Shown: piece by piece, positions 8,376 through 33,131 of the stretch
How the letters are laid out: every line of letters begins with the position of its first letter
Numbering within the stretch: position 1 is the first letter of the stretch
NCBI RefSeq assembly: GCF_002259485.1
Contig: NZ_NPGA01000019.1
Coordinates: forward strand, 248,001 to 312,000
Direction: 5' to 3'
DNA: 64,000 nt
From: Rhodococcus sp. 14-1411-2a
GTDB lineage: Bacteria > Actinomycetota > Actinomycetes > Mycobacteriales > Mycobacteriaceae
Notes under the pieces: generated by a model
The model's database searches: none
Told to the model about the DNA's origin: nothing
The model's input: the letters and a program-made list of their open reading frames with translations, nothing else
Translations under genes and position numbers: made by a program

Positions 8376-8956
8376 GGGGGAGTGCGGTGCTCGCTGCCGT
8401 TGTGCTCGTGTCTGCGCTGATTCAGGCGGTGACAGTCCTGGGCGATCCCGTTCCAGAATCCTCCGTGGGATTCGGTGGGTTGGTTGCGGCGTCTGCCGCG
8501 GCACTGGTGGTCGCCCTGTGGATCACCGCATCGACGGCACTCGATGTGGTGGACGGCAACATCCGCGGTGCGCTGGCTCGGGCATGGCGGCGGCCGCGCG
8601 TCCTGGTGTGGTGTGTGGTCTCGACTCTGGTGGCCGTCGCGCTGGCGATTCTGTTCCCGCTGCTTCCGATTGTCGTGATTCTGGTTGCGCTGCTGGTGCT
8701 TCCGGCCGTGGCCGACGGGCAACGACATCCGTTCCGCGCTGCGACGGCGACTGTCCGGCAGTCCCCGGGGCGGTGCGCAGTCGCGGCAGTCGTCACGATT
8801 GTTGCCTTCGTCCTCGCCTGGGTCGTGGCACTGGTACTGGGCTTCTTCGTCACCGGCGTGGTGGCGGCGTTTCTCACGTGGGTGTGGTTCGGCGCGAATG
8901 CTGCTGTGCTGCTGGTGTATTCGTCACGGTTGTACCGTCGGGTGGGAAGCCGATGA
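8372..8956 (+). CDS. Integral membrane protein, 194 aa
   Basis: The GTG start overlaps the previous stop. About five hydrophobic segments are visible: VLAAVVLVSALIQAVTVL; VAASAAALVVALWITAS; VLVWCVVSTLVAVALAILF with the adjoining VVILVALLVLPAV; VAAVVTIVAFVLAWVVALVLG; and a last one near VVAAFLTWVWFGANAAVLL. Short basic loops (RAWRRPR, RHPFR, SSRLYRRVGSR) lie between, as expected for cytoplasmic sides. I do not recognise the family. As third gene of the phosphoesterase-lipoprotein operon it may anchor or transport with them. Confidence 0.7.
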   Translation: MRGSAVLAAVVLVSALIQAVTVLGDPVPESSVGFGGLVAASAAALVVALWITASTALDVVDGNIRGALARAWRRPRVLVWCVVSTLVAVALAILFPLLPIVVILVALLVLPAVADGQRHPFRAATATVRQSPGRCAVAAVVTIVAFVLAWVVALVLGFFVTGVVAAFLTWVWFGANAAVLLVYSSRLYRRVGSR

Positions 8957-9065
8957 CTCGTGCGACCGGACACTCGAAGGCGGCGTGTCGGTAGCCGCAA
9001 CGTTGCGCTACTGCGTCGGCACCCACTTCGGTTCGCGCATCATCTGAGCTGCCCGATCGCCGAAC

Positions 9066-9965
9066 TCATCGCTCCCGCACGCGATGTGCCTTGTTCCGAT
9101 ACATCGCGGTATCGGCCCGATGAATCAGCGTCGCGGCCGAATCGGCGGGTCGTCGCCTTGCTGCACCTGTGCTGATCGATACACGCTCATGCCCATCGAT
9201 TCCAAGGAGGTGCGTTGCTGCCCCCGCCGCCGCGGCGATGTAGTCGGCTAGATAACGCTGTTCGTCGAACTGCCAGACGAAGCCTCCGTGAGCCCACACG
9301 GATGGGCGGGACGCGATCAGGAACTCATCACCCGCATACCGGCAGACGATTCTGTCGTCATGCGACAGGGCGTGAAGTCGGTCTGCGATCGCGGACAGGA
9401 CTGCGTCTCCGGCCGCGTGGCCGTAGCCGTCGTTGACCTGCTTGAAGTGATCGACATCGGCGAACATCACCATTACTTCGTCGCCGGCTGCAAGCCAATC
9501 GTCGATGACCGAGACCGCAACGTTGCGACGGTACAGCCCGGTCAGGTCGTCGCGTTCTGCGCGCTCACGCCACGTTCGTGCCTCACTGACAATAGGATTC
9601 GCAAGATCCAGGGCAACGACGATGAGAGGCACGCCGTCGAACACCGCGAGTCCGGTGTGCGTCCAGCACGACACCGACACGTCGTCGTCTTGGTGGAGCC
9701 GTCGCATCGCGGCGACCGGTGTCTGCGACGATTCCCCTGTTCGGGCGAAGTCGGTCAGTAGATTCTCTGATACGGCCCGGATCTCCGCATGCTCCGTTGG
9801 GTGCACGAAGGCGAAGACATCACGGGTGTCGCTGTACGTGCGGGATAAATTCGCCGACTTTCGGCACGCGGTATTGACGGCCAGGATGTGAAAACTGGTG
9901 TCGTGAACGAGCGCAGGAAGCGGGATAGCGGCGACGATCTGCTGCGCAGTAACGATCCGTGGCAC
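9066..9965 (-). CDS. PAS-GGDEF diguanylate cyclase, 299 aa
   Basis: Makes the second messenger cyclic di-GMP. The N-terminal PAS domain (about residues 5-125) begins AQQIVAAIPLPALVHDTS. The GGDEF domain follows, with RDDLTGLYRR, MFADVDHFKQVNDGYGH and the active-site loop RYAGDEF. The signature is AGDEF instead of GGDEF, a substitution usually tolerated. No EAL domain and no membrane segment, so it is probably cytosolic. The start is uncertain: I chose the GTG at 9965 with GGAAG upstream; a GTG at 10058 would add 31 residues with no domain. It stands alone, with no operon partner. Confidence 0.78.
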   Translation of the reverse strand: MPRIVTAQQIVAAIPLPALVHDTSFHILAVNTACRKSANLSRTYSDTRDVFAFVHPTEHAEIRAVSENLLTDFARTGESSQTPVAAMRRLHQDDDVSVSCWTHTGLAVFDGVPLIVVALDLANPIVSEARTWRERAERDDLTGLYRRNVAVSVIDDWLAAGDEVMVMFADVDHFKQVNDGYGHAAGDAVLSAIADRLHALSHDDRIVCRYAGDEFLIASRPSVWAHGGFVWQFDEQRYLADYIAAAAGAATHLLGIDGHERVSISTGAARRRPADSAATLIHRADTAMYRNKAHRVRER

Positions 9966-10121
9966 ACCCTCGCTTCCACGTGCGTCCACCTGGCCAAGGG
10001 TAAACCGACGGGAATTGCCGAGAGCAGAAATACTACCGGTCAGTAAGCAACGCCACACACGACAAGAACACGACTCGCGGGACGCGGGCGCGTCGGGTAC
10101 ACCGAAGTCAGGTCTACAACG

Positions 10122-10718
10122 TCACTCCGGAACAACGGAGTCCGAGGCGTGCTCGCCGTAGAAGGACGACTGCGACTGCATGATGTCCTGCATACCGTCG
10201 CCGTGCGACGCGTCGTACACCGTTCCCGGAAAGTCCAGAGTTTGCTGGATGGCCCAGATTTCGTCAAGGCTGCTTGCCGGAAACATGCTGGCCGGATCTC
10301 CCACGGCAACCCACCCGATGGGGAGGACCGACCCGGCGGCAAGCCTCGAATCGACCTGGAGCACTGCGTTGATTCGGACCTCCGACCCTGCCTCGACGAT
10401 CGACCCGGGAAACGTCGACGCACCGGTGGCGATGAACGACTCCCGACCGATGACGGTGCCATTGACGTGCGCGTGCGGGCCGATCAACACACTGTCACCG
10501 ACGATCGTGGGGTACTTCGCGCGTCCCTTGACGACGGCGTTCTCCATCACGACCACATTCTCACCGATACTTACCTGACCATCCTCGGCCGTCAGGATCG
10601 CACCGTGCAGAATCCGCGACCCGGCGCCGACGACAACGTTGCCCACCAACACTGCCGTCGGCGCAACCCACGCATGCTCGGACACGGACGGGGACGAACC
10701 TCGGTGTTGGTACCGCAT
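10122..10718 (-). CDS. Gamma-carbonic-anhydrase-like hexapeptide protein, 198 aa
   Basis: Left-handed beta-helix built from hexapeptide repeats, visible as regularly spaced V/I-G turns (VLVGNVVVGAGSRILHGAIL, VSIGENVVVMENAVV, VLIGPHAHVNG). Histidines at LHGAIL and GPHAHVNG match the zinc ligands of the gamma-carbonic anhydrase/YrdA group. The C-terminal helix (DEIWAIQQTLDF) is typical of the trimeric fold. It may hydrate carbon dioxide or be an inactive relative or acyltransferase; sequence reading does not decide. It sits alone with 398 bases of non-coding DNA upstream. Confidence 0.7.
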   Translation of the reverse strand: MRYQHRGSSPSVSEHAWVAPTAVLVGNVVVGAGSRILHGAILTAEDGQVSIGENVVVMENAVVKGRAKYPTIVGDSVLIGPHAHVNGTVIGRESFIATGASTFPGSIVEAGSEVRINAVLQVDSRLAAGSVLPIGWVAVGDPASMFPASSLDEIWAIQQTLDFPGTVYDASHGDGMQDIMQSQSSFYGEHASDSVVPE

Positions 10719-11116
10719 GGTGTCTTCTCCTCGGTAGTTGCTCGGCGAACTGGTCTGGTCGAGCGAAATTTTGAATTCGAGGGATGTTGGGAACGGGTGT
10801 CGATGGTCATCGAGGCGTATCGGCCGTCGAAAGTCTGCACCTTCGAGCCTTCATCGGTCGCATCATCAGCAGAGATCAGCACCGAAATCGCTGGCCACGG
10901 AACCGACGCAGCTGTGATTCCCATGGCGTCATCGATTCAGTGATCCGAACCACTGGGAATGGCAATGCAGTGCAAAAGCCTCGATGCCGCGGCGTGCACG
11001 CCAGAATTGCTGATGGGTCCGAGTCGCCCTGTGTCGCTGTATCTTCGGGCAGGGTCAGGCTGGGTGTGTACGCAATCGCCAGGGCTCACCGACCTGACAG
11101 GGAGGTCGATCGGGTG
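10719..11116. other. Non-coding stretch, nothing recognised
   Basis: About 400 bases between the hexapeptide gene and tRNA-Met. I see no convincing reading frame, repeat or hairpin-with-T-run; short open frames here are not preceded by ribosome sites and read out of or through the tRNA. Confidence 0.5.
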
Positions 11117-11190
11117 TGGGGCGGGCGGGGCTCGAACCCGCGACCAATGGATTATGAGTCCACGGCTCTAACCGACTGAGCTACCGCCCC
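11117..11190 (-). tRNA. tRNA-Met (CAT)
   Basis: Cloverleaf on the minus strand. Acceptor GGGGCGG pairs with CCGCCCC, the D-arm carries AGCTCAGTCGGTTAGAGC, the anticodon loop is CTCATAA (CAT), and the T-arm carries GGGTTCGAGCCC. CCA is not encoded. A CAT anticodon could also be the lysidine-modified isoleucine tRNA or initiator; the first acceptor pair G-C argues against initiator. Confidence 0.85.
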
Positions 11191-11259
11191 ATGCCCGTAC
11201 CAGGTACGAGCCTGCAGAATCGTACAGAATCGCGTCGCCTCGACGGTGCATCGGGGCAG

Positions 11260-13395
11260 CTATTTCGCTCGGACCTGCACCGGGACACCGTTGAGGATCG
11301 CGTTGGCCGAGACGGCGTCGACGCGATTGGGGTCGGTGATGTCGTTGACGCTCGGCCCCTGCACCGTCGTGGCAACGGACAACTGCACGCCGGGGCGCTG
11401 ATGTCCGAATCCGTGCGGCATGCTCACCACGCCCGGCATCATCTTCTCCGACGCCGCTACCTCGATGTCGACGGTTCCGGCGGCGGAGGTGACCGACACC
11501 ATCGAACCGTCCTCGATACCGCGATTCGCGAGATCCTCAGGATGCGCCAGAAGCTGATGTCGCGCTTTACCTTTGGTGAGCCGGGCGGTGTTGTGCATCC
11601 ACGAGTTGTTGCTGCGCAGGTGTCGCCGACCGATCATCAGCAGTTCATCGCCGGATGGAACTGCGCTGGAATGCATCAGATCCACCAACGCGGGGAGCTC
11701 GGCAACAACGATGTCCTGAATCAGTTGTACCCGCTTGTCCCGCGTCTTCAACTTCTGTGGGAAGCCGGGACGCAATGCTCCGAGATCGACACCGTGTGGG
11801 TTGGCTCGAAGTTTCTTCAGCGACAGTCCTTTTCGTTGACTCCGGAGCAGGATGTCCAGTGTGCGGGCGGGGGACAGGCGCAGCCGGGCTTCGCCGATGA
11901 TGTTCTTCGGAGTCACTCGTGACTTCAACCGACCGACCGTCGAACCGGCCATACGGCTCTTGTAGCGCAGCGACAGATCACGGAAGATCTCCCAATCGTG
12001 CTTGGCGTCGGCTTGCTTGGGCAGCACTGCAGGCATGTACTTCGCCGTGTTGTGAACGGCGAAGGAGTTGAAGATCAGGTCGTAGTGGTCGCGTTCGAGC
12101 GACATCGTCGGCGGCAGAATCACGTGTGCGTGACGCGATGTCTCGTTGATGTAGAAGTCGAACGACACCATGAAATCGAGACCCGCGAACGCGTCGTTCA
12201 GGGTGGTGCCGCCGGGCATCGACAACACCGGATTGCCGGACAGGACCGCCATCGCACGGATCTGGTCCTTGCCCTCGGTGGTGATCTCGTCGACGAGCGT
12301 CGAACAGGGGTATTCGCCTGCGAACTCGGGCAGGTCGCGAACGCGACTGCGCCACTTGTCGAAATGGCCGCGGCCGACGATGCCCTGCTTGATCAGATCG
12401 ATCGCGGGATCGGTCACCATGGCACCGCCGGGGCGGTCGAGATTGCCCGTGATGATGTTCAGTACCTGAATCGCCCACTGGCACACGGTGCCGAACTGCT
12501 GAGTCGAGACCCCCATTCGGCCGTATGCCACCGCGGACTTCGCCGAGGCGAAATCACGTGCCAGGGCCGAGATCTCTTCCGCAGCAATCCCGACGACCGG
12601 AGCGACGGATTCCGGTGCGAATTCCGCGACGAGATCCGCGAGTCGGTCGGCACCGTCGACGTAGTCGGCCACGGTCACCGTGCCGTCGGCCACGATCGTG
12701 TGAATCATCGCGAGCAGCAGCAGTGCGTCGCTGCCGGGCCGAACGAAGAAGTGGGTGTCTGCGATGTCGGCGGTCTCGGTCTTGCGCGGATCGACCACGA
12801 CGAGGCGGCCGCCCCGTTTGCGCAGTGCCCGCGCCCTCTTTGCGAAATCGGGCACGGTCATCATGCTGCCGTTCGAGGCCATCGGATTGCCGCCGAGGAC
12901 GAGGAAGAAGTCGGTTCGATCGATGTCCGGGATCGGCAGTAGCAACTGATGCCCGTAGAGAAGATGGTCGACGAGTTGGTGCGGCAACTGATCCAGGGAG
13001 GTGGCGGAGTATCGGTTGCGCGTACGCAGCAGCGAGGTGAACGGAATGCCGTGGGTCATCGCGCCCATCGAGTGGACGTTGGGATTTCCCTGATAGATCC
13101 CGACCGCGTTGCGGCCGTACTTCTCACGCGTCGAGACCAAACCGTCGATCACGAGGTCGTATGCCTCGTCCCAGCCGATCTTCTCCCATTTCTCACCCAC
13201 ACGTTTGACCGGCGTGGTGAGCCGATCGGTATCGGCGTGCAGATCGATCAGCGACAGCGCCTTGGGGCAGATGTGGCCGCGTGAGAGCGGATCCTTCTCG
13301 TCACCACGGATCGAGACCACCGCGTCGTTCTCCACCGTGAACTCGAGCCCACAGATCGCCTCGCACAGATTGCACGATCCATACACAACCGACAT
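11260..13395 (-). CDS. Molybdopterin (bis-MGD) oxidoreductase, 711 aa
   Basis: Large catalytic subunit of the DMSO-reductase/formate-dehydrogenase superfamily. The N-terminus binds a [4Fe-4S] cluster (SCNLCEAICGLEF, then RGHICPKA). The cofactor-binding core follows (GIYQGNPNVHS, FLVLGGNPMASNG, VVVDPRKTETA, FVRPGSDALLLLAM) and the C-terminal dinucleotide-binding domain has LMIGRRHLRSNNSWMHN. There is no Tat signal, so it is cytosolic. I chose the ATG at 13395, preceded by GGAGGA; an ATG six codons earlier has none. No electron-transfer subunit or maturation gene is adjacent, so the substrate stays open. Confidence 0.85.
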   Translation of the reverse strand: MSVVYGSCNLCEAICGLEFTVENDAVVSIRGDEKDPLSRGHICPKALSLIDLHADTDRLTTPVKRVGEKWEKIGWDEAYDLVIDGLVSTREKYGRNAVGIYQGNPNVHSMGAMTHGIPFTSLLRTRNRYSATSLDQLPHQLVDHLLYGHQLLLPIPDIDRTDFFLVLGGNPMASNGSMMTVPDFAKRARALRKRGGRLVVVDPRKTETADIADTHFFVRPGSDALLLLAMIHTIVADGTVTVADYVDGADRLADLVAEFAPESVAPVVGIAAEEISALARDFASAKSAVAYGRMGVSTQQFGTVCQWAIQVLNIITGNLDRPGGAMVTDPAIDLIKQGIVGRGHFDKWRSRVRDLPEFAGEYPCSTLVDEITTEGKDQIRAMAVLSGNPVLSMPGGTTLNDAFAGLDFMVSFDFYINETSRHAHVILPPTMSLERDHYDLIFNSFAVHNTAKYMPAVLPKQADAKHDWEIFRDLSLRYKSRMAGSTVGRLKSRVTPKNIIGEARLRLSPARTLDILLRSQRKGLSLKKLRANPHGVDLGALRPGFPQKLKTRDKRVQLIQDIVVAELPALVDLMHSSAVPSGDELLMIGRRHLRSNNSWMHNTARLTKGKARHQLLAHPEDLANRGIEDGSMVSVTSAAGTVDIEVAASEKMMPGVVSMPHGFGHQRPGVQLSVATTVQGPSVNDITDPNRVDAVSANAILNGVPVQVRAK

Positions 13396-13480: not shown

Positions 13481-14284
13481 GTGACCACCCTCGATCTCAC
13501 GGCCTCCTGGCCCGTCGACCATGTCAGTGCAGCAGTCGTCACCGACTCCGGAGTTCGTGAGGAGGTCGGGGACACCGATCGCGTCTACGAGCTGGCCTCG
13601 GTCACCAAGCTGCTCAGTGCGTACGCAGTTTTCGTCGCCGTCGAGGAAGGTGCGGTGGAGCTCGATCAGCCCGCAGGACCGGAAGGGTCGACGGTTCGAC
13701 ACCTCCTCGCACACGCGTCGGGACTGGCGTTCGGCGACCTCACAGTCCAGGCACCGGCCGGTACCAAGCGGATCTACTCGAGCGCCGGGTTCGAGGTGCT
13801 GGCCGAGCTGATCGAAACCGAGGCAGGCATTGCCTTCCCCGACTACTTGGACGAGGCCGTGTGTCGGCCGCTGCAGATGACGAACACGTCGTTGCCGGGA
13901 TCGGCGGGCCACGGGGCCAGCTCGACCCTCGCCGATCTGACGAGGTTCGCCGCCGAACTGTTGGCACCGACGCTGCTGGCGTCGCAGACACTCGCGTCGG
14001 CGACCGAAGTGCAGTTTCCCGGCCTGAACGGGATCGTGCCCGGATACGGATCGCACAAGCCCTGCGACTGGGGACTCGGGTTCGAGCTGCGCGACGGCAA
14101 GAGCCCGCACTGGACCGGAAGCAAGAACTCGTCCGCGACGTTCGGCCACTTCGGGCAGGCCGGAACGTTCCTGTGGGTCGATCCGGCCGTGCGGACCGCG
14201 TGTGTGGTGTTGACCGATCGAGCCTTCGGAGACTGGGCGAAACCGCTGTGGCCGGAGCTCTCCGACGCAGTGCTGGCCGGGTGA
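13481..14284 (+). CDS. Beta-lactamase-like serine hydrolase, 267 aa
   Basis: Class C beta-lactamase/DD-peptidase fold. The catalytic SxxK motif is in LASVTKLLSAYAVF (about residues 38-50). The second motif, normally YxN, reads YSSAG, so the asparagine position is altered. HLLAHASGLAFGD is the family helix after it, and GHFGQAGTFLWVDP resembles the region of the third motif. At 267 residues it is shorter than true AmpC enzymes, and no signal peptide is visible, so an intracellular esterase or amidase is likelier than a resistance enzyme. It starts with GTG, divergent from the oxidoreductase with an 85-base gap. Confidence 0.75.
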   Translation: MTTLDLTASWPVDHVSAAVVTDSGVREEVGDTDRVYELASVTKLLSAYAVFVAVEEGAVELDQPAGPEGSTVRHLLAHASGLAFGDLTVQAPAGTKRIYSSAGFEVLAELIETEAGIAFPDYLDEAVCRPLQMTNTSLPGSAGHGASSTLADLTRFAAELLAPTLLASQTLASATEVQFPGLNGIVPGYGSHKPCDWGLGFELRDGKSPHWTGSKNSSATFGHFGQAGTFLWVDPAVRTACVVLTDRAFGDWAKPLWPELSDAVLAG

Positions 14285-25455: not shown

Positions 25456-25530
25456 GGGCGTATAGCTCAGCGGTAGAGCTCTGGTTTTACACACCAGCGG
25501 TCGGGGGTTCGAACCCCTCTGCGCCCACCA
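25456..25530 (+). tRNA. tRNA-Val (TAC), integration site of a mobile element
   Basis: Acceptor GGGCGTA pairs with TGCGCCC, the anticodon loop is TTTACAC (TAC), and the T-arm has GGGGGTTCGAACCCC. Discriminator A, and CCA is encoded. The 3' half from 25486 on is repeated exactly at 33088-33131, so this tRNA is a hybrid: 5' part from the chromosome, 3' part supplied by the element. Confidence 0.96.
25486..25529 (+). repeat. attL core repeat (44 bp)
   Basis: Identical in all 44 positions to 33088-33131 and forms the 3' half of the intact tRNA-Val. The strand exchange took place somewhere inside it, probably in the anticodon-stem/loop or T-arm region as for other tyrosine integrases. Confidence 0.95.
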
Positions 25531-25570
25531 CGATTTACCCAGGTCAAGCGACCTAAGCGAGTAGCGCCCC

Positions 25571-25608
25571 AGTCCGCAATATCGCGCCAGTCCGCAACTG
25601 GTCCGCAG
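25571..25608 (+). repeat. Left integrase arm-type sites
   Basis: Three copies of a 9-bp unit: AGTCCGCAA at 25571 and 25589, GGTCCGCAG at 25600. The 23 bases 25586-25608 recur exactly at 32935-32957 near the other end in the same orientation. Short repeated sites just inside both att cores are the usual binding sites of the integrase N-terminal domain. Confidence 0.65.
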
Positions 25609-25637
25609 TAGCAGAACTACCCGCTGTCTACCGTGAG

Positions 25638-26900
25638 TTACTCGGCAGGTTCGAACGCCGCGTCGAGCAAGAGCTGCGCGCGGTCCGTCTCGTCTGCGAA
25701 CAGGTGGCCGTAGAGGTCGGCCGTCAGCTTCAGCGAGTGGTGCCCCATCCATTCCTGTACCTGTTTCGGCGGAACGCCGTTCGACAGGCAAATACTCGCG
25801 AAGCTGTGCCGCAAGCTGTGCAGTGTTACCGCGTCATCGATGCCGGCAAGCTCGGCAGCGGGACCTAGAACGCGCTTGGCGAAGTTGTTCCTTCTGAGCG
25901 CACCGCCGGCCGACGTCGTGAACACATATTCGTTTCCGCCTCGGCCGTCGCAGACCTGACCCAAGTGCGCAATAAGTCGAGCGGGGATGGGAACAGTGCG
26001 TTCCTTGTGATTCTTCGGATCGCCGACGACGAGCCGGCCGGCAACTTCGCTCACGGCGGTATCGATCCGTAGCGTCCGCTTGGCGAAGTCGACCCGAGAG
26101 ACGCGCAACCCCGCCAGCTCGCCGAACCGGACGCCGCAACCGCCGAGTATCCGCAGTGCAAGCCCGCTCTCGCTCAGTTCGGCCGGCGGGACAATGCCGT
26201 TGTGCTCGGTCGCTCGACCCGCTTTCACGCGCTCGGCTGTCGTACTCGCTCGGTAGTCGGCAGCATGTGCGAGACGTTCGATCTCGGCGACGCTCAGATA
26301 GACCTTGTCGCTTGCGCGCATCTTCGGCAGCGGGACGTCCTTCGCCGGATTGGAGCGGAGCCGCTTCGATCGCACGGCTAGCTGGAGAATTTGGTGCAGC
26401 ACTGCGTGGCAGTGCCGCACGCTCGACGCCGAGAGTCCGTCCGTTGTTTCGGCTGTGCCGTCTGTGAGTCCGCCGATCCATGCCACGATCTCGTCGTGGT
26501 CGACGTCGCGAAGGGGGACCGAGCCCCAACGTGGCTCGACATGCGTCCGCCACACACTGCCGTAGCCCTCGGCGGTCGCTGCCGTCTTGGACGCGTTGCC
26601 GGCGGTCCAGGACTTCGCGACTTCGCCGACCGTCGCCGCACTTTTGGTCGGATCGACCCAATCGCCGCGCGTCACGGCTGCGCTCTGCTCACGTAACCAT
26701 GCGTTTGCGAGCTTCTGTGTCTTGAACGCTTTACTGTGCTCTCGGCCGTCGCTACCGACGTACCGCGCGAGCCACTGGAGGCCGGCACCCGCTCGCGCCG
26801 AGGGTGAGCCGTCTTTGCGTTTCCACCTGTTCTCGACGCGCGCACCGGTCACCCGTTTGGTGGGTAGGGACTCGACGCGGGGGAGAGGTTCGCTAGGCAT
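25638..26900 (-). CDS. int: Tyrosine-recombinase integrase, 420 aa
   Basis: Catalyses insertion and excision at tRNA-Val. Catalytic residues are all present: Arg258 in GGCGVRFGEL, Lys299 (PKNHKER), His361 and Arg364 in LHSLRHSF, His387 in MGHHS and Tyr397 in TADLYGH. The N-terminal 60 residues resemble the AP2-like arm-binding domain (WLARYVGSDGREHSKAF), followed by the SAM-like core-binding domain around residues 90-185. It ends 108 bases from attL and reads toward it. Its promoter would lie in the 277-base gap before the Xis-like gene. Confidence 0.95.
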   Translation of the reverse strand: MPSEPLPRVESLPTKRVTGARVENRWKRKDGSPSARAGAGLQWLARYVGSDGREHSKAFKTQKLANAWLREQSAAVTRGDWVDPTKSAATVGEVAKSWTAGNASKTAATAEGYGSVWRTHVEPRWGSVPLRDVDHDEIVAWIGGLTDGTAETTDGLSASSVRHCHAVLHQILQLAVRSKRLRSNPAKDVPLPKMRASDKVYLSVAEIERLAHAADYRASTTAERVKAGRATEHNGIVPPAELSESGLALRILGGCGVRFGELAGLRVSRVDFAKRTLRIDTAVSEVAGRLVVGDPKNHKERTVPIPARLIAHLGQVCDGRGGNEYVFTTSAGGALRRNNFAKRVLGPAAELAGIDDAVTLHSLRHSFASICLSNGVPPKQVQEWMGHHSLKLTADLYGHLFADETDRAQLLLDAAFEPAE

Positions 26901-27177
26901 GAGAGCACAGTAACAGTCCGTAAAACATTAAGCGGTCGGGGGTGCACTCCTGCGACACGAGATGTCGGATTGGTGCGTGTCGGTGAAAAACACGACGCGA
27001 CTCTGACCAGCGAGTGGACGCTGGACCTAACAGCTTTGACGCGCGAGTCTGTCACGAAAATCATTGCCTGACAACATGTTTCGCTTGCCGGATGGATGGG
27101 TTCGTGTCATTCTTTCGTCCAGAGAGTTACCGGCGTCGACAGAACGTCGCCGGCCGATACAAACCCCTGGAGATGAC
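26901..27177. other. Divergent control region between integrase and Xis-like gene
   Basis: No gene. It holds an arm-like CAGTCCGTA at 26914-26922 and a 13-base exact match to the att core, AGCGGTCGGGGGT, at 26931-26943. Promoters for the integrase and for the rightward genes should lie here. I could not point to confident -35/-10 pairs. Confidence 0.5.
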
Positions 27178-27381
27178 ATGCGCACGAACCCATCGACCGA
27201 ACGGCTCAATGTCGCCGAGGCCGCAGCGTTTCTCGGCGTGAGCCGGCAGACCCTCTACAACCTGCGTTCGGCCGGCGCTGGTCCCGCGTCGTACAAGATC
27301 GGCGCGAAACTGTTCTTCGATCAGCGGGACCTCGACGTCTACGTGGCGCAGTGCAAAGCCGCAACGCTCGTCGGAGCGTGA
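27178..27381 (+). CDS. AlpA/Xis-like helix-turn-helix protein, 67 aa
   Basis: MerR/AlpA-type HTH_17 domain: RLNVAEAAAFLGVSRQTLYN, then GPASYKIGAKLFFDQRDLDVYV. Such small proteins act as excisionases (bending DNA at the att arms) or as regulators of the integrase promoter. The start is the ATG at 27178 with GGAG six bases upstream; the frame extends 38 codons further but without a ribosome site. First gene of the rightward group, divergent from int. Xis role is inferred from size, fold and position. Confidence 0.8.
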   Translation: MRTNPSTERLNVAEAAAFLGVSRQTLYNLRSAGAGPASYKIGAKLFFDQRDLDVYVAQCKAATLVGA

Positions 27382-27458
27382 CCGGGGACCTCTACTCGTC
27401 ATCCATCCCAAGGCCGGCTCAGCCCACAACTGCCGACGTTGAAAGATGGTCCCCTGCA

Positions 27459-27668
27459 ATGATTATCGACCCCAGAACACAGAAATGCCCCCGACCGCAG
27501 TCGAGGGCATTCCGCGAAATAGACCTACCGCCAGATAGTCCGATCTCGTCTCCCGAGGCGATTCTAGCGCGAGCGGCCGACATTCTCGAGTCCCCCGTTT
27601 CATGGGGTTGCGTTGCGTTGCTCTGCAACGTCGTCGCGCTCGGTTCGTTCCTGGCGGGTGCGCGATGA
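27459..27668 (+). CDS. Hypothetical protein with hydrophobic C-terminus, 69 aa
   Basis: Not recognised. The first 45 residues are polar and proline-rich (MIIDPRTQKCPRPQSRAF; DLPPDSPISSPEAILARAAD); the last 20, SWGCVALLCNVVALGSFLAG, are hydrophobic enough for one membrane pass. Its stop overlaps the next start (ATGA), which supports that it is translated. The start codon has no clear ribosome site. A membrane or peripheral role is only a guess. Confidence 0.5.
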   Translation: MIIDPRTQKCPRPQSRAFREIDLPPDSPISSPEAILARAADILESPVSWGCVALLCNVVALGSFLAGAR

Positions 27669-28201
27669 TTCGATTTGTCGAGTGCGAGCCGCACGAGTAC
27701 GACGAAAGCTGCCGTGTCTGCCGTGATGCTCACGGCTCACGCTTCGACGGTTCACGCTATGCCGCCGACGAACGCCGGCTCGTGCTCCGAGCGATGGGCA
27801 TTAGGTCGATTCGGTTGCAGAACCGCCTACTCGCCGAGGGTGGGGACGACTTGATCGACCTTGCAGTTCGGTGCTTGCAGTCCTTGCCGTCGTCGTCGCT
27901 CGAAACGCAGCTCGACACCACCATTCCGGCGCGTAGGACTGCTGGCGCGCCGGTCACCGATCGCACTCACCGTATGCGTGCCGTAGACAAACGGGACCCA
28001 CGGAAAGCGCTCCCGAAAAGCACCGTGGACGTCTTGCGTGAGTTCTACCGCGCCGAGGGTCGACTCCCGGTCATCGTGCCGCTGGCCATCGGGGCCGAGG
28101 TCGCGGCCGAGGTCGGATTGCCGACGCGGTTCCTCATGCCCCAGAACTTGCGCGCCGAGCTTACGGCTCGATTCAGGAACGAACTTACGGAGATATTCTG
28201 A
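27665..28201 (+). CDS. Hypothetical protein, possible zinc finger, coupled to helicase, 178 aa
   Basis: Not recognised. The N-terminus has a compact cysteine/histidine set, CEPHEYDESCRVCRDAHGS (about residues 6-24), able to bind zinc. The middle is helical (LVLRAMGIRSIRLQNRLL) and the C-terminal part (STVDVLREFYRAEGRLPVIV ... LTARFRNELTEIF) is basic and helical. It overlaps the preceding gene by four bases and the helicase by one base, so all three are coupled. The position directly before a helicase that lacks a primase domain suggests a replication-initiation accessory or DNA-binding protein. Confidence 0.6.
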   Translation: MIRFVECEPHEYDESCRVCRDAHGSRFDGSRYAADERRLVLRAMGIRSIRLQNRLLAEGGDDLIDLAVRCLQSLPSSSLETQLDTTIPARRTAGAPVTDRTHRMRAVDKRDPRKALPKSTVDVLREFYRAEGRLPVIVPLAIGAEVAAEVGLPTRFLMPQNLRAELTARFRNELTEIF

Positions 28202-29577
28202 TGCCCGACACAACGCCCGAGGCCGAGCTGAGGCTCTCGCGCCAGCACACTGGACAAGCTCGGTGGGCCTACGTCCTGGCCGAGAACCACGCTCACGACC
28301 TGATGTTCGTCCACGGGCTCGGATGGTTCGCCTATGACGGGACCCGCTGGAGCGAGGACCCGGACGGTGCTTCGGCGACGCAGAAACTTCTCGCCCTCCT
28401 TCGGGTGGCCCGATCGAACGAACTCGTGGACAAAGACACGCTCTCCGAAATTGCGTCCTGCGAGCGTGCGAGCGGGCTTGCCGGGGTGCTCAGCATTGCG
28501 GCGAAGCTGCCAGCTCTGCATTGTTCTGTCGACCAGCTCGACGCCGACCCGAACGTTCTCAATGTGGCGAACGGGACCGTCGACCTCCTCGACGGCGCTC
28601 TGCGAAATCACGATCCGGCCGACCGGATCACGAAAGTGACACGCGCGGCGTATCGACCCGAGTCCCGTTCCGTGGCGTGGGAGAGATTTCTGAAGTCTTC
28701 GCTACCCGACGCCGAGGTTCGCGCGTTCCTACAGCGATACGCCGGTTACGCGCTCGGTGGCCGAGTGACCGAACACATTCTGACGATCCTGCACGGAGAG
28801 GGTCGCAACGGTAAGGGAGTTTTCTACGGCGCTCTGAATCACGCTCTCGGATCGTATGCCGGCATCGGCGAGTCCGAGTTGTTCCTCGATCGCAGAGGCG
28901 CTCACACCACCGGCGAGATGGACTTACGCGGACTGCGACTGGTCACCGTCTCCGAGACCGGACAGGGTGCCCAGCTCGCCGCTGCGACGGTGAAACGACT
29001 GGTCGGTGGAGACAGGATCAAGGCTCGTCGGATGCACCGAGATTTCGTGGAGTTCGAGCCGAGTCACTCGCCGTTTCTCGTGACGAACCATCTACCGAAG
29101 GTGCGCGGCGACGATCCGGCGCTATGGGCACGTCTGCGCGTCGTCCCGTTCGGCGTGGTGATCCCCGAGGCCGACCGAGTGAAGGACCTGCCGGCAAGCC
29201 TGGAACTCGACGCGGACGCCGTGCTCGCGTGGACGATGGCCGGCAGACGCGACTACCTGGACCGTGGAGACCTCGCAGCTCCCGAGGCCGTGAAGGGTGC
29301 CACGGCAGGTTATCGGCGCGCGCAGGACGCAGTGAGCCAGTTCCTGGACCAGGTGATGGAAATCGACGCCGACGAGAAGGCCCTCCTGTCGACGGTCTAC
29401 AGCCGGTGGACCATGTGGGCCACCAAGAACGAGCAGCCGCCTCTGGCGAAGAAAGCTTTCCGTGAGGCACTGGAAGCCCGGAACGTGCCCGTACGGATTT
29501 CGACCGGCAAGCAGAACTACGTGTTCGGCTACCGACTGCCGGAGCGAAAGCTGGTCCTCTCCTCCTCCCAGGATTGA
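28201..29577 (+). CDS. D5/P4-type SF3 replicative helicase, 458 aa
   Basis: Replication protein of phage/plasmid primase-helicase type. The D5 N-terminal region is at about residues 15-170 (FVHGLGWFAYDGTRWSEDP; LNVANGTVDLLDG). Walker A is GEGRNGKG at 199-206, with glycine in place of the usual serine/threonine after the lysine; Walker B region is LRLVTVSET near 245-253. The motif TNHLPKVRGDDPALWARLR near 295-313 is the family signature. No primase (TOPRIM or prim-pol) domain precedes it. It probably lets the excised element replicate itself. Confidence 0.9.
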   Translation: MPDTTPEAELRLSRQHTGQARWAYVLAENHAHDLMFVHGLGWFAYDGTRWSEDPDGASATQKLLALLRVARSNELVDKDTLSEIASCERASGLAGVLSIAAKLPALHCSVDQLDADPNVLNVANGTVDLLDGALRNHDPADRITKVTRAAYRPESRSVAWERFLKSSLPDAEVRAFLQRYAGYALGGRVTEHILTILHGEGRNGKGVFYGALNHALGSYAGIGESELFLDRRGAHTTGEMDLRGLRLVTVSETGQGAQLAAATVKRLVGGDRIKARRMHRDFVEFEPSHSPFLVTNHLPKVRGDDPALWARLRVVPFGVVIPEADRVKDLPASLELDADAVLAWTMAGRRDYLDRGDLAAPEAVKGATAGYRRAQDAVSQFLDQVMEIDADEKALLSTVYSRWTMWATKNEQPPLAKKAFREALEARNVPVRISTGKQNYVFGYRLPERKLVLSSSQD

Positions 29578-29591
29578 ACCGGAAATGCCCG

Positions 29592-29674
29592 GAGGGGAAA
29601 AAGGGGAATTGAAAACCTAATCCCCCATGTGTACGCGTGGGGCAATTACACATTGAAATCCCCTTTTTCCCCTC
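29592..29674. repeat. Long inverted repeat after the helicase gene
   Basis: Two perfect 16-bp arms, GAGGGGAAAAAGGGGA at 29592-29607 and its complement at 29659-29674, enclose 51 bases with further symmetric pieces (CCCCATG / CGTGGGG; CAAT-TACAC-ATTG). The tract is markedly richer in A and T than its surroundings. Candidate replication origin, operator, or transcript terminator. Confidence 0.6.
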
Positions 29675-29730
29675 ACCCACCATGACCAGAACTAATAAGC
29701 ACACCCTAAGTGGAAGAAAGAGAGCATCAC

Positions 29731-30786
29731 ATGACCATCACACGGTTCGATCCATCGACGCCGCCGACGAACCCGGACGACATCGCCCAGGAAATCGGTG
29801 AGGACGAGAGTCCCGACGTCCTCAGTTCCGATGCCGTGAAGGCAGGAAACCGAGCGGCGATGACCGACGCCGCCGAGCGCGAAGCCCGGTTGATCGTCGG
29901 GACGACTCAGGCAGGAGCCCGAGAGCGCGACTTCCGACTCTCGGAAGACCGAGCAACAGCCGAACGTGCACGCGCCCAGATCGACGCACAGCGCGGTGGA
30001 CCGACGATCTCGACCGCACTGCGCGGAGAGGCCGGCGAGGCCGTGAGCGAGCTTCTACGGCTCGATGACATCGCACGGCAGGCATCGGCCATCGAACACC
30101 GCGTAAACGCCGAGGTCGGCGAACTGGAGGCGGCGAAGGCCAAAGCGGCCGAGGATGCCCTACTGGACGGCTTTCTGTCGGAAGGGTGGGATGCCAGCGC
30201 GTCGAAGAGGGCCGTACCGCCGATCCTCACGCCCTTCATGGCGCACAACGAGCACCAGCGGCCCGTGGGTCGGCCGGAAGGCTTCGCCGTGGACGTGCGC
30301 ACTCGACTCCGCCGGCAGCACGCCGAACGCAACGCCGAGCGGGTTCGCAACAACCTCGAGAGCATCGAAAAGCTGCTCAGTTCTCGCACACTGTCGATTC
30401 TCGATAGCGCCGGTACGGCAGCGGACGCCCTTGAGGCAGCGGGCCTATCGGTCGACGCCAGCGCAGAAGACATCATCGAGCAAGACGACCCGGCGGTCTC
30501 GGCAGCCTGGCGAGCATGGCGGGAAGCCGTGGTCCGGTGGACCGAGGTCCAGTCGACGCGCCGTTGGCTCGCAGTGGCGCTGTCGAACGGGTTCGATCCG
30601 AAACGGCCTCTGGAGTTGCTGAACGGCACAGACGCCGAACGGATTTCGTGGGAGCGGCAATTCGTGGGAGCCGAGGTAGGGGTCCGTGTAGAGGGGTCCC
30701 ATATGGCCCTTGTCTGGTGGCTCGCACATGGCAGGCCACCGGCCGCAGGGGTAGCGGCACTGGACGAAGTGGAGGCAGCACAGTGA
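29731..30786 (+). CDS. Hypothetical coiled-coil-rich protein, 351 aa
   Basis: Not recognised. Acidic N-terminus (ITRFDPSTPPTNPDDIAQEI), then long charged helices with heptad-like spacing (AAEREARLIVGTTQAGARER; ARQASAIEHRVNAEVGELEA; NAERVRNNLESIEKLLSS), and a C-terminal globular region with several tryptophans (AWRAWREAVVRWTEVQSTRRW; SHMALVWWLAHGRPPA). ATG 29731 is preceded by GAAAGAGAG; a GTG seven codons upstream is less likely. It overlaps the next gene (GTGA). The long helices recall scaffold or structural accessory proteins, but nothing proves this. Confidence 0.6.
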   Translation: MTITRFDPSTPPTNPDDIAQEIGEDESPDVLSSDAVKAGNRAAMTDAAEREARLIVGTTQAGARERDFRLSEDRATAERARAQIDAQRGGPTISTALRGEAGEAVSELLRLDDIARQASAIEHRVNAEVGELEAAKAKAAEDALLDGFLSEGWDASASKRAVPPILTPFMAHNEHQRPVGRPEGFAVDVRTRLRRQHAERNAERVRNNLESIEKLLSSRTLSILDSAGTAADALEAAGLSVDASAEDIIEQDDPAVSAAWRAWREAVVRWTEVQSTRRWLAVALSNGFDPKRPLELLNGTDAERISWERQFVGAEVGVRVEGSHMALVWWLAHGRPPAAGVAALDEVEAAQ

Positions 30787-31079
30787 CCGCCAAGAACCGA
30801 GGGGTTGGTCGTTACCTGTCCGACGACCATCACGTTGCGTCCGTGTTGAGAGCCAAGAAAGCTCAGCTGGAACGGGATGAACGACGACGCGCGCACGAGA
30901 ACGAGATGTCCGCCAAGCGATCGAAGCGGCAGTCAGAGCGAGACGCCGAGGCGGACAAGGTGAAGTCGCAACTGGTCGCCGGCACCGAGAGTAATACCTC
31001 TGATGGAGGGTCGCCGCTCAAGTCGGCTCAGCGTCGCGAGAACGCCGGTCGAGGGTTCGGGAAGTACCTCGACCAGTAG
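30783..31079 (+). CDS. Hypothetical charged protein with duplicated end motif, 98 aa
   Basis: Starts with GTG overlapping the preceding stop. Very charged helical middle (KKAQLERDERRRAHENEMSA, then KRSKRQSERDAEADKVKSQL). A short motif appears at both ends: RGVGRYLSDD near residue 7 and RGFGKYLDQ as the last nine residues. Not recognised. Such paired terminal motifs around a helix could be two binding sites for one partner. Confidence 0.55.
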   Translation: MTAKNRGVGRYLSDDHHVASVLRAKKAQLERDERRRAHENEMSAKRSKRQSERDAEADKVKSQLVAGTESNTSDGGSPLKSAQRRENAGRGFGKYLDQ

Positions 31080-31452
31080 GCGCACAGCGTGGCGTACAGC
31101 CCCGGCATTCCATCGCGGAGTGTCGGGGCATCGTCGTCTCGACCCCTAGGGGGTCCACCTCCCCCCACCCCCTCAAACGGAAGGCAGCCCCGTACTGCGC
31201 TCTGGCAGGGCTGCGGTGCTAACTGTATCGGCCCCGGTAGCCTGAGCTGGCGTTTTACCCCCTCTGGTACCCCTCCAAGCCGACCGTAGAGCGACGTTAC
31301 AGCCACTAGCGGGGCGAAACATGCTCTCGCTTAACATCTTTCGCTCGAACGAGCGGCGGGAAACACAAGCGGGGCGAACTTTTGACAGCGCGGATACCGT
31401 AGTTCCGAGCGTCTAATCGGGTGCTCGAAGACGTCGAAAAGGATTGCGCGCC
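31080..31452. other. Structured non-coding region of the element
   Basis: 373 bases without a gene. It contains GACCCC-TAG-GGGGTC (31141-31155), GCAGCCC / GGGCTGC (31184-31214), the perfect palindrome CGCTCG-AA-CGAGCG (31342-31355), and the direct repeat AGCGGGGCGAA at 31308-31318 and 31368-31378, exactly 60 bases apart. The next genes (54-aa, TerS-like) start just after it. It could be a terminator plus promoter region, a packaging site or a replication origin. Confidence 0.5.
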
Positions 31453-31617
31453 ATGCCTATCACTCCACCAAGCGCCAGCACCAAGACCGAGCATCTCGCC
31501 GCCGCCGAGGCCGCTCTAGCGAAGGCGTACCGTCTCGCCGACAAGTCTTACGAGATTTCCCCCGACTTCCATGCCCTGCTCGCGTCGCTTCACCTCGGCA
31601 TCGCGGGGCTGAAGTGA
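31453..31617 (+). CDS. Hypothetical small protein, 54 aa
   Basis: Begins MPITPPSASTKTEHLAAAEA and continues as one helix (ALAKAYRLADKSYEISPDFH). ATG has AAGGA ten bases upstream, and the stop overlaps the next start as GTGA, so translation is likely. Not recognised; the helical repeat of alanines suggests a small helical bundle or adaptor. First of four closely packed genes at the right end of the element. Confidence 0.55.
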   Translation: MPITPPSASTKTEHLAAAEAALAKAYRLADKSYEISPDFHALLASLHLGIAGLK

Positions 31618-32006
31618 GCGCCGAGCGGGTAGACCTCGCAGAAATCTTCACCGCCAAAGCCGCCGAGTTGGGGATGCAGCTCGACGCCGACGACCTGGAG
31701 GTAGTGCGCCGAGCGCAACAGGCAGCCGATGCGGCCGACCGCTGCGCGCGTGACCTCGCAACGCCGGGACTCTCCACCACAGGTGCCCGTTCGTTGATGG
31801 CCGAGCAACGCGCGCAGAGCCTCGCACAAACCAAGTTGATGGCCGACGTTGACCGTCGTCTCGGAGTCGCAGCCGCGCAAGGTGGCGCGAGAGGCATCCG
31901 AGGCACGTACACCGGCGACGGCAGTCAGAACCAGACCCGCGACTCTGAGCGGGCCAACCGTCGCGGGGAGACTCGGCAGAGCCGCACGGCCGCTCGGAGG
32001 GCATGA
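31614..32006 (+). CDS. Possible phage terminase small subunit-like protein, 130 aa
   Basis: GTG start overlapping the previous stop. The pattern of a helix LDADDLEVVRRAQQAADAAD, a loop with TPGLSTTGARS, then a second helix LMAEQRAQSLAQTKLMADVD and RRLG resembles P27-type terminase small subunits of actinophages, which have an acidic helix, a linker and an R-x-Q-x-x-L helix. The C-terminal 45 residues are basic and disordered (GSQNQTRDSERANRRGETRQ). Small subunits choose the DNA to be packaged; satellites use their own to steal helper capsids. The match is by pattern only, without a confirmed alignment. Confidence 0.35.
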   Translation: MSAERVDLAEIFTAKAAELGMQLDADDLEVVRRAQQAADAADRCARDLATPGLSTTGARSLMAEQRAQSLAQTKLMADVDRRLGVAAAQGGARGIRGTYTGDGSQNQTRDSERANRRGETRQSRTAARRA

Positions 32007-32007
32007 G

Positions 32008-32301
32008 ATGGCCCGCCCGATCGCCGTACCGGTGAAGCCGGACACCAGCAGGGCCGGCGACGAGCTACCGGCCGACCTTCGGCCCGACGCCTGGCGCGAG
32101 TGGCTGTCCGAGGTCCACGACGAGCCGACGACGGAGTTCGAGAAGGACATCGCCTACCCGGACGGCTGGACCGCGAACCCGTTCGGCTCGACGGCCGAGA
32201 AGCGGGCCTACGCCCTCCCGACGCCGGTCGATTGGTGGCGCGAAGAAGTGGCCGCACAGCTGCAATGGCGTGCCCGCGACGACTGGAGGGCCGCGCAGTG
32301 A
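32008..32301 (+). CDS. Hypothetical acidic protein, 97 aa
   Basis: ATG preceded by GGAGG seven bases upstream; stop overlaps the next start (GTGA). Tryptophan-rich acidic sequence: RPDAWREWLSEVHDEPTTEF, DIAYPDGWTANPFGSTAEKR, VDWWREEVAAQLQWRARDDW. Not recognised. The lack of cysteines and the high content of W and E suggest a small protein-binding domain. It sits between the TerS-like gene and a cysteine-rich gene in a tight group. Confidence 0.55.
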   Translation: MARPIAVPVKPDTSRAGDELPADLRPDAWREWLSEVHDEPTTEFEKDIAYPDGWTANPFGSTAEKRAYALPTPVDWWREEVAAQLQWRARDDWRAAQ

Positions 32302-32858
32302 CCACCGCCGACGTCTCTCTGATCGTACCTGCGACGTGTCCGCGCGGACACGTCCTGGAGCCCCGCACCGTCACCCTGGACGTTCGGGTCGTCCAACACA
32401 CGAAGACCAGCCGACGTCTCGACGCGACAGCCTGGCGGTGCGTTCCCTGCGTCCGAGCAGATTGCTACACCGCGCACACGGGTGAACCCGCACCCGCCGA
32501 AATACTTCGCGCCGAGTGCTTCGCGCGACAGCACGGATGGAACAGCACCAGCGGGTGGCACCGTCGCGTGCGCTTCGGCAGCGGTAGGCAGTTCTCCGAC
32601 CGCGACGCAACCCCGGACAAGACCGACAAGAAACGGAACAGAAGCATGACCTATCGGGACCCGACCGCCGTCGCCGCACTGAGTGCCACCGTTGGCGTCA
32701 CGCAGAACCGACTCGAAACCACCTGGCGCGACTATCTCGACCCTGACGAATTGCCGACCGAGGCCGACCGGCAGGAAGTCGAGCAGCTCGGGCTCGACGC
32801 CTGGCGCGAAGCGCGCGCGTACCGGCGCTACCGCGCCACGCGCGGACGTGCGGCCTAG
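32298..32858 (+). CDS. Hypothetical protein with zinc-binding cysteine cluster, 186 aa
   Basis: GTG start overlapping the previous stop. The first half has TCPRGHVLEP (residues 13-22) and, 30 residues later, WRCVPCVRADCYTAH, giving four or five cysteines and two histidines placed as in a zinc ribbon or treble clef. The second half is helical and acidic (RLETTWRDYLDPDELPTEAD ... REARAYRRYRATRGRAA). It might be a nuclease-like or nucleic-acid binding protein; I see no clear HNH catalytic motif. A second start (MTYRDPTAV) at 32646 would split off the helical half. Last gene before the right att region. Confidence 0.55.
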   Translation: MTTADVSLIVPATCPRGHVLEPRTVTLDVRVVQHTKTSRRLDATAWRCVPCVRADCYTAHTGEPAPAEILRAECFARQHGWNSTSGWHRRVRFGSGRQFSDRDATPDKTDKKRNRSMTYRDPTAVAALSATVGVTQNRLETTWRDYLDPDELPTEADRQEVEQLGLDAWREARAYRRYRATRGRAA

Positions 32859-33087
32859 TGGCTGCGCAGCGTGGCGGGTATCTCCAGCGCCGGCGGCAGC
32901 GCCCGCCGATTGTCCGGCACGTTCTCAGTCCGCAGCCAGTCCGCAACTGGTCCGCAGAACTCGATTCTGACAGCGGTAGCGCGGGGGAGATACCGGTAGG
33001 AATAATGCACGTAGTGCCTGTTAAAGACGGTAGTGGTCGGTAAAGCAAGATCACGACACGTTGCCGTCGAAGTCGCAGAACCGGTAA
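32859..33087. other. Right end of element, non-coding
   Basis: From the last gene to attR. It contains the right arm-type sites (32927-32957) and nothing else recognised. A 61-codon frame starting at a GTG overlapping the previous stop covers the arm sites; I do not accept it as a gene. Confidence 0.5.
32927..32957 (+). repeat. Right integrase arm-type sites
   Basis: AGTCCGCAG at 32927, AGTCCGCAA at 32938 and GGTCCGCAG at 32949, spaced 11 bases apart, i.e. about one helical turn. 32935-32957 is identical to 25586-25608 near the left end, in the same orientation. Confidence 0.65.
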
Positions 33088-33131
33088 TTTACACACCAGC
33101 GGTCGGGGGTTCGAACCCCTCTGCGCCCACC
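33088..33131 (+). repeat. attR core repeat (44 bp), displaced tRNA-Val 3' half
   Basis: Exact copy of 25486-25529. It is the original chromosomal 3' half of tRNA-Val, cut off by the insertion. The base after CC is G here, whereas the element copy continues with A to give CCA. Confidence 0.95.

Follow-up and report, generated by a model that had tools for sequence, protein, structure and literature searches.

A compact tRNA-Val element of Rhodococcus as a probable cos-type satellite of Zierdtviridae phages

We analyzed a 64,000-nt stretch of DNA (hereafter the window), whose host is a Rhodococcus in the broad sense and which carries a compact integrated element of 7.6 kb at positions 25486-33131. 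The element is bounded by a 44-bp direct repeat whose two copies are 100% identical (attL, 25486-25529; attR, 33088-33131; both forward strand; spacing 7602). The attachment target, a tRNA-Val(tac) gene found by ARAGORN at 25456-25530 on the forward strand, contains attL and is intact there. A preliminary description of this DNA had proposed an intact element between exact att repeats at tRNA-Val, and the repeat search and ARAGORN confirmed it. Repeats of CAGTCCGCAA at 25562-25608 are probable arm-type integrase sites, and the CAGTCCGCA repeats at the opposite arm (32924-32957) may serve the integrase as well. The CAGTCCGCAA repeats recur near both ends of a related element, L063, and similar repeats lie near both ends of another, L158.

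The ends of the element are not a matter of chance, because repeats of 44-45 bp also bound related elements at other tRNA genes and because in genome G008 (locus L040) the flanks adjoin without a kilobase insert, lying 210 bp apart against 138 expected. The left flank with tRNA-Val was present in 36 of the 37 genus genomes; the match in G018 was 43 bp only. Genome G034 has a 6-kb insertion at this locus with the same right flank as the window element. Further repeat copies or elements adjoin in G027, G034, G017 and G033, and a fragment does in G018 (window, L063, L065 and L067). The locus looks like an insertion hotspot in the genus.

Lists of open reading frames (ORFs) were used for the window genes; the gene caller missed or shortened several of them. 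Ten ORFs, that is, all but the 54-aa o8, were scanned against Pfam and PHROGs at E<=1e-3. A tyrosine integrase of 420 aa (25638-26900, reverse strand; PF00589, 1.7e-23) is followed on the forward strand by a 67-aa AlpA/excisionase-like helix-turn-helix (HTH) protein (27178-27381; PF12728, HTH_17, 6.3e-13; phrog_66, 5.2e-8; TIGR01764, 1.1e-4, under its cut-off). Then come o3 (69 aa, 27459-27668; present also in the relatives L156 and L157) and o4 (178 aa, 27665-28201), neither with an assigned function, and a 458-aa superfamily 3 (SF3) helicase with a P4-family primase C-terminus (28201-29577). The helicase was matched by Pfam (D5_N, 1e-25; DUF5906, 1.5e-8), by PHROGs and, above its cut-off, by TIGR01613. 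The integrase, AlpA-type excisionase-like (Xis) protein and SF3 helicase that had been proposed are thus all present (PF00589, HTH_17 and D5_N), and the remaining Pfam matches were a second integrase domain and further HTH families only.

Behind the helicase lies an imperfect inverted repeat (29592-29674), a candidate replication origin or terminator; a similar palindrome occupies the same place in the relative L014. The forward strand continues with o6 (351 aa, 29731-30786), which has no assigned function and served as our family marker (64% identity in L014, 31% in L063), and with the basic o7 (98 aa, 30783-31079), which carries a scaffold-type tag near both ends (GVGRYL and GFGKYL). A hairpin that looks like a terminator (CCCCGGCA...TGTCGGGG, 31100-31128, forward strand) precedes a cos-like site at 31147-31202 on the same strand. 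The last genes, all forward, are o8 (54 aa, 31453-31617; no assigned function), o9 (130 aa, 31614-32006), o10 (97 aa, 32008-32301; no assigned function) and o11 (186 aa, 32298-32858; a Cys/His-containing N-terminus and no assigned function). Besides the integrase, HTH protein and helicase there are therefore eight ORFs, and most neighbors abut or overlap by 1-4 bp. The coupling of small genes described earlier holds, although their number is eight rather than about nine.

No capsid, tail, large-terminase, lysis or FtsK/TraB family was matched in the 10 ORFs by Pfam or PHROGs at E<=1e-3, in agreement with the preliminary description. Weak PHROG matches were seen to a terminase small subunit (0.024, HTH protein), head scaffolding (0.45, o7), a minor tail protein (0.25, o10) and tail fiber assembly (0.4, o6). 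The element has its own integrase without a full virion gene set, as satellites in general do. It also shows the order of a phage-inducible chromosomal island (PICI), with a divergent int, alpA and then the replication module, and the specific attachment site of a PICI in its 44-bp repeat at tRNA-Val; no stl-type repressor was recognized. The FtsK/TraB transfer gene that defines an actinomycete integrative and conjugative element (AICE) was not among the Pfam matches of the 10 ORFs.

An o6 profile built from three proteins (window, L014 and L063) was found in 9 of 401 family genomes, belonging to 5 of 31 genera, while a one-sequence search of 397 order genomes had found the window alone. L014 (L008/L014, genome G021) is 7558 bp long and has its genes arranged as in the window from the helicase through o11, with identities of 53-80%, but its integrase is only 42% identical to that of the window. 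L063 (genome G027) has an integrase 79% identical to that of the window. It has an AAA_25 (RepA-like) gene where the window has the SF3 helicase, and its o6, o9 and o11 are recognizable at 31-36%. Iteron-like GGTCAGGT repeats lie directly after the RepA-like gene (4590-4780 of L063) and are a probable replication origin. The preliminary description had suggested a search for elements of 7-8 kb with the same gene order at tRNA-Val in other Rhodococcus genomes. L063 sits at the same tRNA-Val, and L014 at tRNA-Met.

Eight of the nine elements have tRNA repeats of 44-45 bp, at six kinds of gene (Val-tac twice, Val-gac twice, Met, Pro, Thr and Ala); for L160 we found no tRNA repeat and no right end. 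The lengths of the eight range from 7280 to 7916 bp (mean 7665, SD 213). Three kinds of replication module occur: SF3 helicase (window and L014), AAA_25 (L063, L156 and L157) and Prim-Pol with AAA_25 (L158, L159, L160 and L161). Since these differ, the constant part is the region after replication. In that region o6 is constant by construction, the set having been found through it; o7 and the cos-like site played no part in finding the set. By tblastn, o9 was present in seven of the nine elements and o11 in five. In a simple Nei-Gojobori-type count, the ratio of nonsynonymous to synonymous divergence (dN/dS) for o6-o11 was 0.10-0.30 against L014, at high dS (0.9-2.2), and 0.19-0.67 against L157. 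Against L156 it was 0.17-0.40 except for o10, whose 1.24 comes from very few changes. By the ratios against L014, o6-o11 are under purifying selection. The proportion of synonymous differences (pS) against L156 was 0.10 for o9 and 0.015 for o10, compared with 0.60 for o8 and 0.48 for o11. Because there is so little synonymous difference in this block (window 31614-32301, L156 8436-9126) while its neighbors o8 and o11 have diverged, we take it as a sign of recent exchange of o9-o10 between elements in different genomes.

The longest noncoding gap of the window element (31080-31452) holds the cos-like site, which is conserved at the same place in all nine elements. In the window, L014 and L063 its core reads GGCAGC-NNN-GTACTGCG, equal to the joined ends of the linear record of GuyFagieri, a Rhodococcus phage of the Zierdtviridae (67,084 bp; last bases GGCAGCCGCGTAC, first bases TGCG). 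The equivalent of this phage-end junction in the window is 31195/31196, between GTAC and TGCG; here and below, phage cos sites are inferred from the ends of database records. A stretch of G-runs and C-runs upstream of the core is also common to GuyFagieri, with 24 bp identical in L063. When 101 bp of L063 were compared by BLAST with 50,697 phage records, nine records were matched (E up to 10). Rhodococcus phages made up the top six (E 2e-3), each matched over exactly its last 57 bases. Classification was looked up for three of them: GuyFagieri and Braxoaddie are Zierdtviridae, and CoffeeBean is given as Viruses only. With 131 bp of L160, 19 records were matched, 17 of them Gordonia phages, and the match ended at the last base in 10 records of six Gordonia phages (Marietta, Sukkupi, NadineRae, BiPauneto and Yndexa, E 0.03; KidneyBean, E 5).

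We also built a hidden Markov model (HMM) of the junction from phage ends alone (n = 8: GuyFagieri, CoffeeBean, Braxoaddie, Emianna, Patio, Flapper, Foxboro and Skysand, seven of them classed as Zierdtviridae). Its best match in the 64-kb window was 31147-31202 (12.2 bits, E 0.0097), the next reaching 2.3 bits (E 12). In stretches of 8.5-14.3 kb, the syntenic site ranked first in all nine elements, at 8.4-23.5 bits (L158 23.5, L014 19.3, L160 18.1, L063 16.2, window 12.2, L156 10.3, L159 9.4, L157 9.0 and L161 8.4). Among 120 control loci (869,600 bases), which were those at hand, many fetched by cos-like patterns, and not a random sample, one match of at least 8.4 bits was found (8.8, in a mycobacteriophage) and none of at least 12.2 bits. 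Another model, R1, was trained on the elements themselves and in a first look scored only 132 candidates per genome. It gave five strong matches (44.7-55.8 bits; next 17.0) and no other like them in 37 genomes; because of its training, these prove nothing on the site itself.

Short sequence patterns gave further matches. The pattern GGCAGCNNNGTACTGCG had nine matches in the 37 genus genomes, three being the elements and six lying elsewhere, most within called genes (reversed control, five). The exact pattern GTGGCGTACAGCCCCGGC was found in two viral contigs, and its 22-base form, with one mismatch allowed, in 4 of 397 order genomes (reversed control, one); besides the window genome, these were three from a different genus. 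The single viral contig matched by TAGGGGGNCCACCTCCCCC was taken as chance, and so, by our own estimate, were the 41 viral contigs matched by AGGCAGCNNNGTACTGCG.

The gene nearest the record start, at 110-112, is annotated as a small terminase in GuyFagieri, CoffeeBean and Braxoaddie. That of Emianna is labeled a minor tail protein, yet it is 58% identical to the first gene of GuyFagieri. In Patio a terminase note is attached to a gene at 777, and Flapper, Foxboro and Skysand each begin with a gene labeled minor tail protein (labels only). In the window, o9 stands downstream of the cos-like site in the same direction and is homologous to P27-type small-terminase-like proteins of the relatives (o9 of L063, 36%, 1.9e-15; of L157, 35%, 2.4e-13). 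The o9 proteins of four relatives matched PF05119, the P27-type small terminase (L063 3.6e-4, L157 1.5e-4, L158 0.029, L161 0.0015), and phrog_1496 (L063 0.0043, L157 2.8e-6, L158 3.2e-7, L161 3.8e-5). Of the three among these that were scanned with TIGR01558, L157 (2.5e-4) and L063 (0.009) matched, both under cut-off, and L161 did not. By sequence, then, the packaging signal expected of a satellite or PICI is there as a cos-like site in all nine elements, accompanied by a terS-like gene in four relatives and, indirectly, in the window.

These results led us to consider the window element very probably a cos-type phage satellite of Zierdtviridae phages, and we filed it as a phage satellite that forms its own family and whose mode of action would resemble that of cos-type PICIs. 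The satellite reading of the preliminary description, argued there from missing genes, is strongly supported by positive evidence in the phage-end-like site, the o7 tags, the small-terminase matches in four relatives and the uniform length. A conjugative AICE or integrative plasmid that has lost its transfer gene, or that is mobilized by another conjugative element, would share some of these genes: small Streptomyces plasmids, too, have matches to the SF3 helicase (about 40%), and the Prim-Pol and AAA_25 genes of the relatives would suit plasmids too. However, such an origin does not fit a post-replication module common to nine elements, their uniform lengths, purifying selection and a phage-end-like site in each, and we regard it as very unlikely. 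The preliminary description had named a relative with a TraB/FtsK gene as the observation that would speak for a deleted AICE. No TraB/FtsK gene appeared in the scanned window ORFs or in the replication regions of six relatives, where all 10 larger ORFs from Xis to o6 proved to be Prim-Pol or AAA_25 proteins (the scan took in these larger ORFs and part of the small ones).

The other phage-related evidence concerns the capsid. At about the place of o8, L063 encodes a protein of 123 aa with homology to the C-terminal portion of Zierdtviridae scaffolds (phrog_12880, 8.6e-18). With E up to 1, this protein matches 59 phage records (56 Gordonia, 2 Nocardia and 1 Rhodococcus). The C-termini of six phage scaffolds were inspected: GFGRYL with 2-4 further residues closes four of them, and GMGQW or GMGQF with a few further residues closes the other two, which are from Rhodococcus phages. 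In all nine elements o7 (61-121 aa) has a GFGRYL-like tag near its N-terminus and another near its C-terminus. This dual tag occurred in none of 20,000 shuffles of each o7 and in none of the 330 open stretches of 55-130 aa in the six frames of the window. In the six o7 proteins scanned, similarity to phrog_12880 is weak: E was 0.45 for the window and for L156 and 8e-4 for L159, and L157, L158 and L160 had no match. The conservation of the dual tag in all nine elements suggests that o7 may affect capsid assembly.

The cos-like site and the small-terminase-like and scaffold-tag features look phage-derived, as they would in a decayed prophage that by chance retains a cos site and remnants of head genes. 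We think this very improbable, considering that the scanned or aligned ORFs of the nine elements showed neither a large terminase nor a portal or capsid. Open ORFs, exact att repeats in eight elements, a length of 7.3-7.9 kb and dN/dS values of 0.10-0.30 against L014 are all unlike decay.

Several observations weigh against a cos-type satellite of Zierdtviridae phages. In the L160 search the lowest E value (GRU1, 3e-3) and the match to GTE8 (0.1) were internal to the records, not at their ends. Taken singly, the HMM matches of L156, L157, L159 and L161 fall short of significance (E 0.064-0.26), and that of the window is moderate; the junction reads GTCC in L157 and GTACTA in L159; and downstream of the cos-like site the sequence had no clear match to phages. 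No relatives of o6 were found in the viral contigs, phages or plasmids searched. As for o9, the Pfam and NCBIfam matches of the relatives are below curated cut-offs, the proteins of the window, L014 and L156 had no terminase match of their own in the Pfam, PHROGs and NCBIfam scans, hhalign supported no similarity to the small terminase of the phages themselves, and tblastn did not detect o9 in L159 and L160. The regular expression for the tag was written after the sequences had been seen, one of the six phage scaffolds, that of Braxoaddie (GMGQF), does not satisfy it, and GMGQ stands in place of GFGR in both Rhodococcus phages. The window genome (G000) has no HK97 capsid by PF05065 and no match to the GuyFagieri large terminase, and therefore no resident helper of that kind.

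The large terminase of GuyFagieri has only distant matches, of at most 34%, in 7 of the 37 genus genomes. Among the 93 features of GuyFagieri no product is named integrase or repressor, and the phage therefore looks virulent. The helper thus probably comes from outside and is virulent, where the preliminary description had expected a temperate one. Virulent helpers are likewise known for phage-inducible chromosomal island-like elements (PLE) and phage-inducible chromosomal minimalist islands (PICMI) (PMC10803314).

If the element is such a satellite, its cycle could run as follows. A Zierdtviridae phage would infect the carrier, the AlpA-like protein and the integrase would excise the element as a circle, and the helicase would replicate it from its own origin. 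The helper terminase would then cut and package concatemers at the satellite cos, with o9 perhaps steering the choice of DNA, and the particles would be released by helper lysis. For o7 we propose that it may occupy the scaffold-binding site of the helper capsid protein, resulting in a smaller capsid or a hindered helper. This proposal draws on CpmB of the Staphylococcus aureus pathogenicity island SaPI1, because CpmB and the helper scaffold have a C-terminal motif in common and CpmB binds the capsid at the scaffold's site (PMC6893505). CpmB, found in type 1 SaPIs, and o7 both have a scaffold-type tag; o7 has it near both ends.

The length of GuyFagieri divided by that of the eight elements gives 8.5-9.2, so that the 7.6-kb genome is about one ninth of the helper's. 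A satellite genome is usually one third of the helper genome, and 7.6 kb is far below this. We tentatively propose, and hold with clear reserve, that o7 is a tiny bivalent adaptor bearing the helper scaffold tag at both ends, that it redirects capsid assembly to heads for a 7.6-kb genome, and that the elements of Rhodococcus and related genera represent a new family of satellites whose helpers are virulent Zierdtviridae phages. The satellite might instead travel in full-size heads, each filled by a concatemer of about nine units, with o7 only interfering with capsid assembly or being accessory. The length ratio would suit this, and PICMI satellites are packaged as helper-sized concatemers (PMC10803314), but the dual tag in all nine elements suggests an effect on capsid assembly; we give this variant a chance only a little short of even.

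Among the closest known systems, the cos-type PICIs SaPIbov5 and EcCICFT073 are alike in plan, as they too have an integrase, a replication gene and a helper cos within the element; an AlpA-type gene is common to the window element and Gram-negative PICIs. In EcCICFT073 the helper cosN is present and the cosB region is different (PMC6092414), and the window element likewise has a phage-like junction with no clear match downstream of cos. It differs from the cos-type PICIs in its post-replication genes, helper family, host phylum and size, and it combines a small-terminase-like gene with cos. PICMIs of Vibrionaceae are very small satellites of virulent phages with an integrase, AlpA and a primase (PMC10803314), and the window element resembles them in these genes and in size. 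However, PICMIs are described as lacking terS and sid, adjoining fis and having random ends suggestive of headful packaging; they are also set apart by having no helper packaging sequence, whereas the window element has a cos-like site and lies at tRNA-Val.

The phiRv1/phiRv2-type mycobacterial elements are candidate PICIs defined by a major capsid gene (PMC10654092). Like capsid-forming PICIs (cf-PICIs), they are small integrated actinobacterial elements but have their own major capsid gene, which the window element lacks (no PF05065 in G000). In Streptomyces, Mulch and Flayer represent actinobacterial satellite-helper systems, whose satellites reportedly encode encapsidation machinery without key replication genes, the reverse of the window element; a conserved region of these satellites is similar to a Rhodococcus qingshengii genome (PMC10690885). 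It has also been suggested that small actinobacterial elements could be satellites (PMC10023795). In searches of one open-license paper library, none of the papers listed (at most 20 per search) gave, in its title or the start of its abstract, an account of Zierdtviridae or Rhodococcus satellites.

With a named candidate helper family, a usually vague claim about a compact actinobacterial satellite family becomes directly testable, and such phages have already been isolated on Rhodococcus and Gordonia. The doubled scaffold tag suggests a new and very simple route to taking over capsid assembly. Elements so small, identified through a packaging site and not through known genes, may escape current satellite finders. 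If the helpers are virulent, the satellites may double as phage defense.

A few other elements and matches were noticed. A 9.2-kb element at tRNA-Ser in Rhodococcus sp. EPR-157 (L009/L016; L009 497-9706) has an integrase, an Xre-looking regulator, an Xis-like gene, an SF3 helicase 53% identical to that of the window and an HK97-type capsid gene (PF05065 over cut-off); we take its layout to resemble that of phiRv1/phiRv2. In Arsenicicoccus bolidensis (L018, 5929-13875), where the analyzed stretch ends at 13875, a related helicase (42%) is accompanied by a large ORF that by eye looks like a recombinase and by a protein with 37% identity to the L009 capsid. A 33-bp segment just upstream of the cos-like site (window 31078-31110) matches 54 mycobacteriophage records (87.9% and E 0.1 in the 20 listed). 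It lies in the end of a hypothetical gene in three of the four records inspected and in no annotated gene in Spartacus, and sits downstream of a replication initiation gene in the inspected phages; three genomes of a different genus have its one-mismatch form. L160 also encodes, to the immediate right of its element genes (8612-11320), a restriction-modification protein of the MmeI type, complete at 902 aa and with five MmeI Pfam domains.

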